A DNA stretch of 55,317 nt from Synechococcales cyanobacterium S06 (GTDB taxonomy: Bacteria; Cyanobacteriota; Cyanobacteriia; Cyanobacteriales; JAABRE01), in assembly GCA_011391125.1 (NCBI GenBank), contig JAABRE010000028.1:1-55317 (forward strand), written 5' to 3'. A model generated the notes under the pieces. The model was not told the origin of the DNA. It saw only the letters and a program-made list of their open reading frames with translations, and made no database searches. A program made the translations under genes and the position numbers. Shown here one piece after another: positions 20,026 through 54,815 of the stretch. Every line of letters begins with the position of its first letter. The stretch's first letter is position 1.

Positions 20026-20364
20026 GTAGGGTGGGTTAGGTGGCGAAAATTCCGCAACCTCCAAGGGGATTGTACCCTCACCCCCCGGCCCCCACGGACC
20101 ACGAGGTGAGGGGGAGGTGGTCAATTGTAGGGTGGGTAATCGGGGCAAAAATTCCGCAACCATCACCCACATTGAACAATCCACCGTAACCCACCAGATC
20201 AGGGCTGGTGGGTTACGGCAAGTTTGATGATTTGGGTTGGGCCTCCTAGCTTGTTGGCTGCCTAACCCACCCTACGAGATAAGTAGCTCTGGGCTGGTGG
20301 GTTACGGCAAGTTTGATGATTTGGGTTGGGCCTCCTAGCTTGTTGGCTGCCTAACCCACCCTAC
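20026..20364. repeat. Cluster of GTAGGGTGGGTTA/TAACCCACC repeats with a 74-bp identical duplication
   Basis: The gap between 20021 and 20368 is almost entirely repeats. It has a GTAGGGTGGGTTAGGTGG element (20026), a CCCTCACCCC...GGTGAGGGGG element (20074-20113), a second GTAGGGTGGGTAAT element ending in CCGTAACCCACC, and a 74-bp sequence present twice without visible differences (20202-20275 and 20291-20364). That sequence runs from GGGCTGGTGGGTTACGGC to CCTAACCCACCCTAC. No gene fits here. Confidence 0.85.
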
Positions 20365-49188: not shown

Positions 49189-49267
49189 TGAAAAAAACAC
49201 AAGTCTGGTCAAGCTATTGACATTATTAGAGTCGATGGGTATGTTACCATACCACACCTCTCATCCG

Positions 49268-49300
49268 AAACCGTGCATGAACCTTTCAGCTCACACGGCT
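49268..49300 (-). ncRNA. Group II intron domain V
   Basis: The 33-nt catalytic hairpin AGCCGTGTGAGCTGAAAGG...CATGCACGGTTT. Lower stem AGCCGTG pairs with CACGGTT (one wobble); the upper loop is GAAA-like. It starts within the ORF stop codon region. Confidence 0.85.
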
Positions 49301-51293
49301 ACTCAATTAACCTATCTTGTCTCTGAGACTTCTTATCCCGTAAGACTGGGCTGTTCCGTTCTATAGCTATAAGGTCGAGTTTATCTGGTTTATAGCTTTT
49401 TATTTTAGCCTTATCCTTGTTGGTATGCTTGTTATTAGAACTATCAATCTTTTCGGATTTCTTGGTACAACTACCATCTGTAGCGGTTTTACTGTCGTGA
49501 CAATGTCCGTGTAACAATTGTAAGTTGTCATACCTATCTAAGCCTCCTAGGCTTAATGGTATGATGTGGTCAACCTCCATAATGTCACTTTCTGTAAAAT
49601 ACAACCCGCATTCCTGACATCTTCCTTTCTGTCTCTTAAGCAAGTTAAGTTTCCTAGTCGATAATTCAGGATGGATTAATAAACGTTTATACCAGTATTT
49701 GAGGTCTCCATCATAAGGACTTTTATTCCTTTTGACTTTGACATATTCTGTACTACTGCAATGAATGTCACCGTGGTATGCAATATGACCTATAGCTTTT
49801 ACACTATCAGCCCATTCCATACGATAGCTTTCCTTACCATTTAACATAATGTATTTACGTTTATGGTAATAACGGTTTAACCCGTCATTTACAGTGCCAC
49901 AACTTCTCTTTGCCCAACTTCTGAGTTTGGAATACATCATTTTGGTCTGTTTACTACTAATACCTGCTGTTTTAATATCAGAGTATTGGTAGTAATTAGA
50001 CCATCCTTTAATGACAGGATTTAACTGTTTAATCAAAGCTTCGATTGGTTTTGATACTAGTTTACCTATAATCTCTCCCAATTTTTCCTGATGATTCTTT
50101 TGACTCTTTTCGCTGGGTGTTATTAAAGTTTTATAACCAGTAAGTTTCTTTTGTAGATTTTTACTACACTTATGTTTACCTGTTTTATGTTGCTGTATAT
50201 GAAATCCTAAGAAGTCAAAACCTGCAACCTTATCCTCGGATAATTCAGGGTATAACGTGTGAGTTAGTCTGGTCTTCTCTGGTTTTAATTCTAAACCGAT
50301 GTCTGATAACCATTGGTTGATTGCTTCTTTGCATTTGAGGATTATTTTTTTATCTTTGTGCATGACAACAAAGTCATCTGCATATCGGATAAAGTTTAAT
50401 TCTTTTTGTGCAGTTTGGTTTTTGTTGACACATTCTCTTACTATAGTTTCCATACCGTGTAAGGCAATGTTAGCTAGTAAAGGTGATATTACTCCTCCTT
50501 GAGGTGTGCCACTTTCAATCTTTTGGAATACTCCATCTTCCATTACTCCACTGGTTAACCAAGCTTTCACTTGTTTTCTTAAATTACCTTTAAGTCCAGT
50601 TTTCGTGAGTAATTTCTGGTGGTCAATGCGTTCAAAACATTTTGCTATATCAGCGTCTAAGACGAATTTAGGTTTATGCTGTATGCTTAATTTGATTTGT
50701 TGTATTGCATCTTGACATCGGCGAGCAGGTCTAAACCCATAGCTGTTAGGCTCAAATTTAGCTTCCCACTCTGGCTCTAAAGCCATTTTGACTAGCGCTT
50801 GTAAAGCTCGGTCATACATTGTTGGTATTCCAAGTGGTCTCTTTTCCCCATTAGATTTTGGTATCCAAACTCTTCTGGTTGCTTTAGCTTTATGGCTAAG
50901 TTTAAGTGATTCTACAAGTGTAAATCTCTGACTGGCTATGACTGATTTAATTCCGTCAATACCTGCCGTCTTTTTACCTTTGTTATCTTGGGTAACACGT
51001 CTGACCGCTAGTAATTTGGCTTTATAGCTCCTTAATAACATTTTCTGGTATTTACGCATTTTACAGATGTCATTATCCGCAGAAGCCTTATAGATTTTCT
51101 TTTGCAACTTGAATACGTCCTTCTCGATTTTTCTCCAAGGAATCATACTCCATGTCACTTCAGCAGATTGTTCCTCTTCACTGAGAATCTCGAAAGTTTC
51201 CCCGTTCTTAGTAACCATATTCCGCTTAGTTTTAACTTTATCCATTGCTAATTGAAACTCCACAAATCGGTTAACTGCGGGGTACGTCTGCAT
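49299..51293 (-). CDS. ltrA: Group II intron reverse transcriptase/maturase with HNH endonuclease
   Basis: A 664-residue multifunctional protein that splices and mobilises its host intron. Residues ~105-370 are the reverse transcriptase: KKTAGIDGIKS, RRVWIPKSNGEKRPLGIPTM, SYGFRPARRCQDAI, GTPQGGVISPLLANI and the catalytic IRYADDFVV. The thumb/maturase X domain (NPVIKGWSNYYQYS, RSWAKR) follows. The C-terminal HNH nuclease has GRCQECGLYF, EVDHIIPLSLGG and GHCHDSKT. All key residues appear intact. The start at 51293 is the first ATG of the frame; an internal ATG (MDKVKTKRN) 16 codons later is possible. Confidence 0.95.
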   Translation of the reverse strand: MQTYPAVNRFVEFQLAMDKVKTKRNMVTKNGETFEILSEEEQSAEVTWSMIPWRKIEKDVFKLQKKIYKASADNDICKMRKYQKMLLRSYKAKLLAVRRVTQDNKGKKTAGIDGIKSVIASQRFTLVESLKLSHKAKATRRVWIPKSNGEKRPLGIPTMYDRALQALVKMALEPEWEAKFEPNSYGFRPARRCQDAIQQIKLSIQHKPKFVLDADIAKCFERIDHQKLLTKTGLKGNLRKQVKAWLTSGVMEDGVFQKIESGTPQGGVISPLLANIALHGMETIVRECVNKNQTAQKELNFIRYADDFVVMHKDKKIILKCKEAINQWLSDIGLELKPEKTRLTHTLYPELSEDKVAGFDFLGFHIQQHKTGKHKCSKNLQKKLTGYKTLITPSEKSQKNHQEKLGEIIGKLVSKPIEALIKQLNPVIKGWSNYYQYSDIKTAGISSKQTKMMYSKLRSWAKRSCGTVNDGLNRYYHKRKYIMLNGKESYRMEWADSVKAIGHIAYHGDIHCSSTEYVKVKRNKSPYDGDLKYWYKRLLIHPELSTRKLNLLKRQKGRCQECGLYFTESDIMEVDHIIPLSLGGLDRYDNLQLLHGHCHDSKTATDGSCTKKSEKIDSSNNKHTNKDKAKIKSYKPDKLDLIAIERNSPVLRDKKSQRQDRLIE

Positions 51294-52354: not shown

Positions 52355-52510
52355 ATACTACCTTTAAGTTTATCTATTTTTGTGATTTTTGACAAATAAA
52401 AAACCATATTTACCCGTGAGTATTTACTCCCAATTCCCTTCACAAAAATTAACGAAAATTTCCGCTGCATTTTGAAAAAAAAAACAAATTGTATTATAAT
52501 CCTAAAGTAG

Positions 52511-52568
52511 GGTGCGTCACACAAATAACTTAATTAATCAAATAATTAATTGAAAAATGTGACGCACC
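52511..52568. repeat. Palindromic GGTGCGTCACA element (copy 2 of 3)
   Basis: GGTGCGTCACA (52511-52521) and its complement (52558-52568) flank an AT-rich centre. It lies 24 bp upstream of the RTX gene start, so it would be in the leader RNA. The matching copy at 53961-54019 follows the same gene. Confidence 0.8.
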
Positions 52569-52592
52569 TTAGACAATTTTAGGAGTAAAACA

Positions 52593-53951: not shown

Positions 53952-53960
53952 TGGCAATTT

Positions 53961-54019
53961 GGGTGCGTCACACCGATAATTTATGGGTTTAATAATTAAA
54001 TTTAAAATGTGACGCACCC
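53961..54019. repeat. Palindromic GGGTGCGTCACA element (copy 3 of 3)
   Basis: GGGTGCGTCACA (53961-53972) and its complement (54008-54019) with an AT-rich 35-nt centre. It begins nine bases after the RTX stop codon and could be its terminator hairpin. Confidence 0.85.
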
Positions 54020-54038
54020 TACAATATTAAGCTATAAA

Positions 54039-54680
54039 CCACCTCGAAATGAATTTCGAGGAAACCAACAGCAGAAGTTTGCTAAAGCAACTAGGGTTGG
54101 TAAATTAGTCCCTTTAGGAGACTTGCACTGTTGGTTTTCTTGTCACAAATAACAAGGCGATTGCTTATTCATAGCCAAGATGTTGGTGAGGTATAATAAC
54201 CCACCTCGAACTAAAGTTCGAGGAAACCAATAGCAGAAGTTTGCTAAAGCAACTAGGGTTGCTAAATTAGTCCCTTTAGGAGACTTTCGCTCTTAGCTAT
54301 GAAATTTATTTCATAGCGATTTCTGATTCACCGCCAAGATGTTGGTGAAATCTCATGGTTCACCTCGCTAAAAGGCTACGATCTCAGGTCCACCTCGAAC
54401 TAAAGTTCGAGGCTAATAGCAGAAGTCTGCTAAAGCGACTAGGGTTGGTAAATTAGTCCCTTTAGGAGACTTGAGCTGTTAGCTATGAAATTTATTTCAT
54501 AGCTATTGCTTATTCATAGCCAAGATGTTGGTGAGGTATAATAACCCACCTCGAACTAAAGTTCGAGGCTAATAGCAGAAGTCTGCTAAAGCGACTAGGG
54601 TTGGTAAATTAGTCCCTTTAGGAGACTTGCGCTGTTAGCTATGAAATTTATTTCATAGCGATTTCTGATTCACCGCTTCG
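54039..54680. repeat. Four tandem ~160-bp structured repeat units
   Basis: Units start at 54039, 54201, 54390 and 54546, each with CCACCTCGAA; a 30-bp partial piece (CACCTCGCTAAAAGGC) precedes the third. Each unit carries: H1 (CCTCGAAC-TAAA-GTTCGAGG in units 2-4; CCTCGAAAT-GA-ATTTCGAGG in unit 1), P2 (AGTYTGC-TAAA-GCRACT), P3 (AGTCCC-TTTA-GGAGACT) and, in units 2-4, H4 (GCTATGAAA-TTTA-TTTCATAGC). A stem P1 enclosing P2 and P3 is AAACCAACAG/CTGTTGGTTT in unit 1 and GCTAATAGC/GCTGTTAGC in units 3 and 4. H1, P1 and P2 show compensatory changes. No ORF of note is present. Confidence 0.85.
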
Positions 54681-54687
54681 CCTTATG

Positions 54688-54815
54688 TTAAGTTTTGTAA
54701 CACTTGCTTGACAATATGATAGTTTTATGTATATAACCTTGGGCTGGCGTGCAATCGCGATAATTAATCAAGGGTTTTCTGAGCAGATTAATTGCCGTTT
54801 TGCCCCACCCTACAA
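54688..54815 (+). repeat. ~125-bp direct repeat, right copy
   Basis: Partner of 52230-52354 in the same orientation, with TTGACA-N16-TATATA and ending GTTTTGCCCCACCCTAC. It lies between the structured repeat array and the convergent coiled-coil gene. Confidence 0.75.

Follow-up and report, generated by a model that had tools for sequence, protein, structure and literature searches.

Organization of the repeat array

The window, that is, the whole 55,317-nucleotide stretch analysed here (contig JAABRE010000028.1 of Synechococcales cyanobacterium S06), carries a tandem array of structured elements 3' of an RTX gene. The sequence-only reading of this DNA had placed four units at positions 54039-54680; these are present, with start-to-start spacings of 162, 186 and 156 bp, and the stems P1, P2 and H1, together with their coordinates, had been correctly described. 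Each unit proved to be an inverted pair of a monomer of ~54 nt, and the four pairs at 54038-54662 comprise 4 plus and 4 minus monomers, one of the minus copies being degenerate (Table 1). Read in order, the monomer consists of a YCCG tag, hairpin H1 (8 bp, 4-nt loop), the linker CTAATAGC (8 nt, CT(A/C)ATAGC) followed by 2 nt, and hairpin H2 (6-7 bp, TAAA-type loop). The inner spacer of the pairs is always 10 nt long, either GGTTGGTAAA or GGTTGCTAAA, and the outer spacers between units measure 39, 68 and 38 nt. Because the unit is an inverted monomer pair, P1, originally taken for an enclosing stem, corresponds mainly to the linker paired with the inverted linker of the partner; the pairing itself stands, and only its description is refined.

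Table 1. Elements of the array in the window
Feature	Position	Strand	Remarks
Unit 1 plus monomer, H1-linker-H2	54038..54094	+	R1 33.1 bits; linker AAACCAACAGC, consensus + 3 nt
Unit 1 inner spacer GGTTGGTAAA, H2 to inverted H2	54095..54104		sequence
Unit 1 minus monomer, degenerate	54105..54160	-	H2 TTAGTCCCTTTAGGAGACTT intact, H1 altered; under R1 threshold
Outer spacer, units 1/2	54161..54199		sequence
Unit 2 plus monomer	54200..54256	+	R1 39.7 bits
Unit 2 inner spacer GGTTGCTAAA	54257..54266		sequence
Unit 2 minus monomer	54267..54320	-	R1 59.5 bits
68-nt variant of the units 1/2 outer spacer	54321-54388		sequence
Unit 3 plus monomer	54389..54442	+	R1 64.2 bits
Unit 3 inner spacer GGTTGGTAAA	54443..54452		sequence
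Unit 3 minus monomer	54453..54506	-	R1 55.2 bits
38-nt near-copy of the units 1/2 outer spacer, between units 3/4	54507-54544		sequence
Unit 4 plus monomer	54545..54598	+	R1 65.4 bits
Unit 4 inner spacer GGTTGGTAAA	54599..54608		sequence
Unit 4 minus monomer	54609..54662	-	R1 58.1 bits

Several other features of the window deserve mention. The RTX gene is flanked, at 52507-52571 and 53960-54024, by palindromes (GTAGGGTGCGTCACA...TGTGACGCACCCTAC) that resemble GTAG-tagged cyanobacterial REPs. After the array, at 54676-54745, lies a conserved stretch with a TTGACA and a TATAA-like box, which recurs inside the second array of this genome, on contig C8 (L022 1950-2050, 2190-2250, 2420-2480 and 2690-2750), and looks like a promoter copy carried along with the arrays. 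A group II intron domain (RF00029) at 49225-49303, on the minus strand, adjoins a 664-aa ORF (49299-51293, minus strand), and a perfect 89-bp tandem duplication of 1.8 copies occupies 20202-20364.

Conservation of the fold

When compared with shuffled sequences, each unit of the window folds with z = -4.9 to -8.2, none of 200 shuffles being as good, and the units fold well on both strands. Covariation is weak if judged from the four window copies alone. The sequence-only reading had looked to a larger alignment for this signal, and there it is strong: in an alignment of 71 monomers drawn from 23 genomes, both sides have changed in 14 of 15 pairs, the share of paired cells is 86.9% versus 65.1% in shuffles, and the covariation score is 0.609 versus 0.217, whereas sliding the partners makes the pairing collapse. 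Since the 71 monomers, from which the covariance model R1 was built, had been selected by a folding filter, we retested covariation on copies captured by the linker alone. In these 296 copies, to which no folding filter was applied, 84.3% of cells are paired versus 63.9% in shuffles. Moreover, near-identical copy pairs that differ at exactly two stem sites differ at partner sites in 78 of 112 cases (70%; 3.4% expected), and at one orthologous site, shared by two species of a single genus, two base pairs of H1 have changed with compensation and nearly all of the element outside these H1 changes is identical. The compensated changes in the 71- and 296-copy sets and at the orthologous site thus argue for a fold that is either kept by selection or renewed by conversion.

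A transposase beside the second array

In the 4.8-Mb genome (168 contigs), R1 has 23 matches. The second array spans C8:1888-2687; outside the two arrays there are at least five further occurrences, each a single copy or a pair. The tyrosine transposase genes of the host genome, which the sequence-only reading had suggested looking for, include an intact Y1 tnpA at C8:2774-3202, on the minus strand and ~100 bp from the second array. Its product, a 143-aa Y1 transposase that starts with MALWRLYYHLIWATKERQPLI, has an HUH pair (DHIH) and the motifs WQ and Y---Q--HH; all of these are also present in its homologues, with a few members carrying N for D. The protein scores 93 bits against the NCBIfam IS200/IS605 model NF033573 (cutoff 55) and 31.5 bits, below the cutoff of 80, against the REP-transposase model. 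The nearest solved structures are those of IS608-type transposases (2a6m, 2vhg).

TnpA_Y1 subclass 1.2 is characterised in the literature by the motifs DH[IV]H, WQ and Y---Q--HH, a low copy number and occurrence in Cyanobacteria and Bacteroidota; its REP entry reads 'no', and typical secondary structures at the termini are generally lacking in the published account (Quentin et al. 2018, PMC6006769). Judged by its motifs and model scores, the C8 transposase is an HUH/Y1 enzyme of TnpA_Y1 subclass 1.2 and not a RAYT (class 2). Genes of this subclass occur in 33 of 120 genomes, at 1-2 copies per genome, and the homologues returned by the protein search come from cyanobacteria plus a few other organisms. 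Among the options raised by the sequence-only reading was a non-autonomous element moved by a RAYT/IS200-605-like enzyme. This option is supported, because the repeat adjoins an intact IS200-type tnpA of the HUH kind at C8 and homologues of it at about 100 other loci; its RAYT half does not hold, as the enzyme is of another class and the GTAG tag is missing.

Association of the repeat with the enzyme

The repeat accompanies subclass 1.2 tnpA. R1 matches it at 24 of 24 subfamily-A tnpA loci, at 0 of 6 sister-subfamily tnpA loci and at 0 of 8 other Y1_Tnp loci, the latter in the own genome and in the relative G022. Matches around tnpA are concentrated close to the gene, with 61 of 122 within 250 bp and only 3-4 per bin beyond 1 kb. 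Because many of the 24 loci had supplied training monomers for R1, we assembled an independent set of loci through protein matches in GTDB genomes; in this named set, which includes some of the species used for training, strong R1 matches are present at 73 of 80 tnpA loci, among them loci of Nostoc, Microcoleus, Fischerella, Cyanothece and other cyanobacteria. The set also holds repeat and tnpA together in Parabeggiatoa, Marithrix and a Chloroheliaceae bacterium, apparently as a result of transfers. At the Desulfobacteraceae and Desulfamplus loci, R1 matches are weak or partial, the two-hairpin plan being kept and the linkers differing, and at two of the 80 loci (L157 and L163) the flanks read contain no repeat.

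Building a covariance model and searching relatives with it, as had been proposed, revealed that the repeat is widespread in cyanobacteria. A subfamily-A tnpA is carried by 25 of 119 relatives (22 intact, one partial and two decayed), and all 25 contain the repeat, 24 of them in 10 or more copies, compared with 24 of the 94 relatives that do not carry the gene (Fisher 7e-11 with kinship ignored, a value that overstates independence because the genomes are related). For the repeat-bearing, enzyme-less genomes, of which G022 is the clearest case, we assume loss of tnpA or gaps in the draft assemblies. REPs without their enzyme gene likewise occur, through gene loss.

The type of repeat matches the enzyme subfamily. 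The six sister-subfamily transposases, which are 36-43% identical to the own enzyme and also carry the subclass 1.2 motifs, are in all six cases encoded next to a different two-hairpin repeat, with the linker CTACACAAACAAA or a close variant of it, which reaches 151 copies in one genome. Inverted hairpin repeats also border the subclass 1.2-like genes of two Bacteroidota plasmids, an observation limited to these two loci.

At the sister tnpA loci (L119-L125), this different repeat, whose linker is also read as GGCTACACAAACAAA, constitutes a second two-hairpin family of very high abundance with its own clade of subclass 1.2 transposases.

Dispersal of the repeat and alternative explanations

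Copies that match the linker pattern number from 0 to 173 per genome among relatives, against control counts of at most 3, and the R1 genome search recorded counts of up to at least ~48 per genome. Copies are dispersed and also tandemly amplified, and they are tied neither to RTX genes nor to one gene class. In dispersed copies of G000 and G022, H1 is innermost, whereas in other genera it is H2, so that more than one boundary is conceivable for the mobile unit. An empty-site search in one genus returned orthologous filled sites and one non-informative site but no clean empty site, and in one orthologous-site comparison neither insertion nor excision was seen. A genome-wide GTDB scan with one over-strict repeat pattern gave no match, and the plasmid collection held no DNA match to the repeat.

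Other repeats are interleaved with this one. At L026 2757-2914 (contig C87), a GTAG-type palindrome (GTAGTTGCGC...CAACAACAAAC) interrupts a hairpin arm of one copy, a site that reads as a nested insertion between two repeat families. A separate repeat with the ends CAGGGTGTTTTCA...TGAAAACACCCTG has imperfect flanking duplications of 8-9 bp and encloses one or the other repeat family (L024 2480-2720, L061 1474-1790 and L090 around 1336-1520); its ends have >200 matches in G022. We considered this shell as the carrier of the repeat and set it aside as a separate nested repeat. We abandoned a first reading as a ~155-bp MITE with TTAGTC ends, which single copies in G000 and G022 had suggested: most genera show the other phase, with H2 innermost, and the unit that the copies have in common is the monomer.

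We consider it quite probable that the four window units form a BIME/REPIN-like cluster, and that the two-hairpin DNA repeat composing it is non-autonomous, itself REP/REPIN-like and processed as single-stranded DNA by the single-copy subclass 1.2 TnpA. The low copy number of the enzyme, its conserved catalytic residues and the stem pairing kept through compensatory change would also suit protein- or nucleoid-binding sites that the host keeps, with the enzyme as a domesticated nuclease, e.g., in repair, that mobilises nothing. The wide range of linker matches among relatives, and the dispersal combined with tandem amplification, fit a spreading repeat instead, which makes such host-kept sites unlikely.

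A structured RNA is improbable, whether as a repeated ncRNA or as mRNA 3' end, processing or termination elements whose linkage to the transposase would be a by-product. It could account for the stable RNA folding, for terminator-like matches (5 versus 0.9 in shuffles) and for the position of the window array 3' of the RTX gene. However, folding is good on both strands, and the repeat has no Rfam match at the gathering threshold and only chance-level ones (E of 0.5 or more) at a permissive threshold. The inverted pairs, the lack of a single associated gene class and the clustering at one transposase subfamily likewise speak against it, as does the number of sites that match the linker, which reaches about 170 in a genome. 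The two RNA options of the sequence-only reading, a repeated ncRNA and a 3' processing element of the RTX mRNA, are accordingly not borne out, although by analogy with some REPs a secondary RNA role is possible. Finally, a classical MITE with terminal inverted repeats that a DDE transposase moves, and for which the HUH neighbourhood would be a mere landing site, has little probability: inverted monomer pairs do resemble terminal inverted repeats, and in G000 and G022 many copies sit within the MITE-like CAGGGTGTTTTCA shells with their imperfect 8-9 bp flanking duplications, but in other genera most copies have no such shell, the dimers themselves show no evident target duplication in G022, and a landing site explains neither why repeat type follows enzyme subfamily nor why the repeat is absent from other Y1 loci.

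Proposed mechanism and significance

Under the preferred reading, a repeat processed by subclass 1.2 TnpA, the DNA strand would become single-stranded, for example as the lagging-strand template, and H1 and H2 would fold. TnpA would recognise both hairpins in their folded state along with the linker and the tag, which stay unpaired, and would cut and rejoin near the hairpins, whereby the repeats would spread and amplify locally while the tnpA gene stayed put. We infer cleavage, joining and mobility of the repeat by TnpA from the analogy with IS608/ISDra2 and E. coli TnpA_REP. Candidate guide sequences are the linker and the YCCG tag, which lies at the foot of H1 and whose positions are conserved at 51-74%, with the bases beyond less conserved. 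A REPtron-like system of this kind is the most economical account, and the repeat family was probably spread by the subclass 1.2 transposase.

A more far-reaching proposal, which we advance tentatively and hold to be somewhat short of an even chance, is that subclass 1.2 as a whole, across Cyanobacteria, Bacteroidota, some Desulfobacterota, Beggiatoaceae and Chloroflexota, might represent a third kind of single-strand transposition system, in which one IS200-type enzyme would read a two-hairpin substrate through a co-evolving linker and would have spread several independent repeat families (the CTAATAGC type, the CTACACAAACAAA type and others).

A transposase subclass that was published without a DNA partner is now given a specific candidate substrate, one present in many cultured cyanobacteria, including Nostoc, Microcoleus and Fischerella, and this would at the same time account for a kind of unannotated intergenic repeat that is very common in them. 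Matched pairs of enzyme and repeat provide material for understanding how HUH transposases choose hairpins, and bear on how an insertion sequence enzyme turns REP-type.

Comparison with known systems

The sequence-only reading knew no named family for the unit, and this holds within the literature searched, which was mostly open-access; an earlier description under another name is possible. None of the papers among the matches listed for the linker strings concerned repeats of this kind. Elhai et al. reportedly described small dispersed repeats of cyanobacteria in 2008.

The closest parallel is found in REP/REPIN (BIME) sequences and their TnpA_REP (RAYT) enzymes, which share with the present system short palindromes arranged in inverted pairs and clusters, an intergenic and dispersed distribution, a single-copy HUH/Y1 gene flanked by repeats and a repeat type that tracks the enzyme type. 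Nevertheless, the enzyme here belongs to class 1, subclass 1.2, whereas RAYT is class 2, and the monomer consists of two hairpins and a conserved 8-nt linker. GTRG occurs near the foot of H1 in 5 of 311 copies and in the linker in 0 of 311, and CGTC in 6 of 311, with YCCG in their place. Lacking a GTRG/CGTC tag and paired with a class 1 enzyme, the repeat is by definition not a REP/REPIN.

IS200/IS605 elements (IS608 and ISDra2, subclass 1.1) encode a homologous HUH transposase, and hairpins are recognised as single-stranded DNA in that family. Unlike in these elements, where one left-end and one right-end hairpin delimit the gene, several inverted monomers flank it here, and the gene, at 1-2 copies per genome, appears not to move as a unit. 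With a single-copy gene far outnumbered by the repeats, this is not an ordinary IS200/IS605 element.

The GTAG-15, GTAG-16 and GTAG-12 REPs are also cyanobacterial palindromic repeats from partly shared genera, but are defined by a GTAG end tag that is missing here (Di Nocera et al. 2013, PMC3733652). With the published subclass 1.2, the present enzymes share the motifs, the low copy number and the occurrence in Cyanobacteria and Bacteroidota; what sets them apart from that account is the presence of cognate paired hairpins at nearly every gene examined here (Quentin et al. 2018, PMC6006769).
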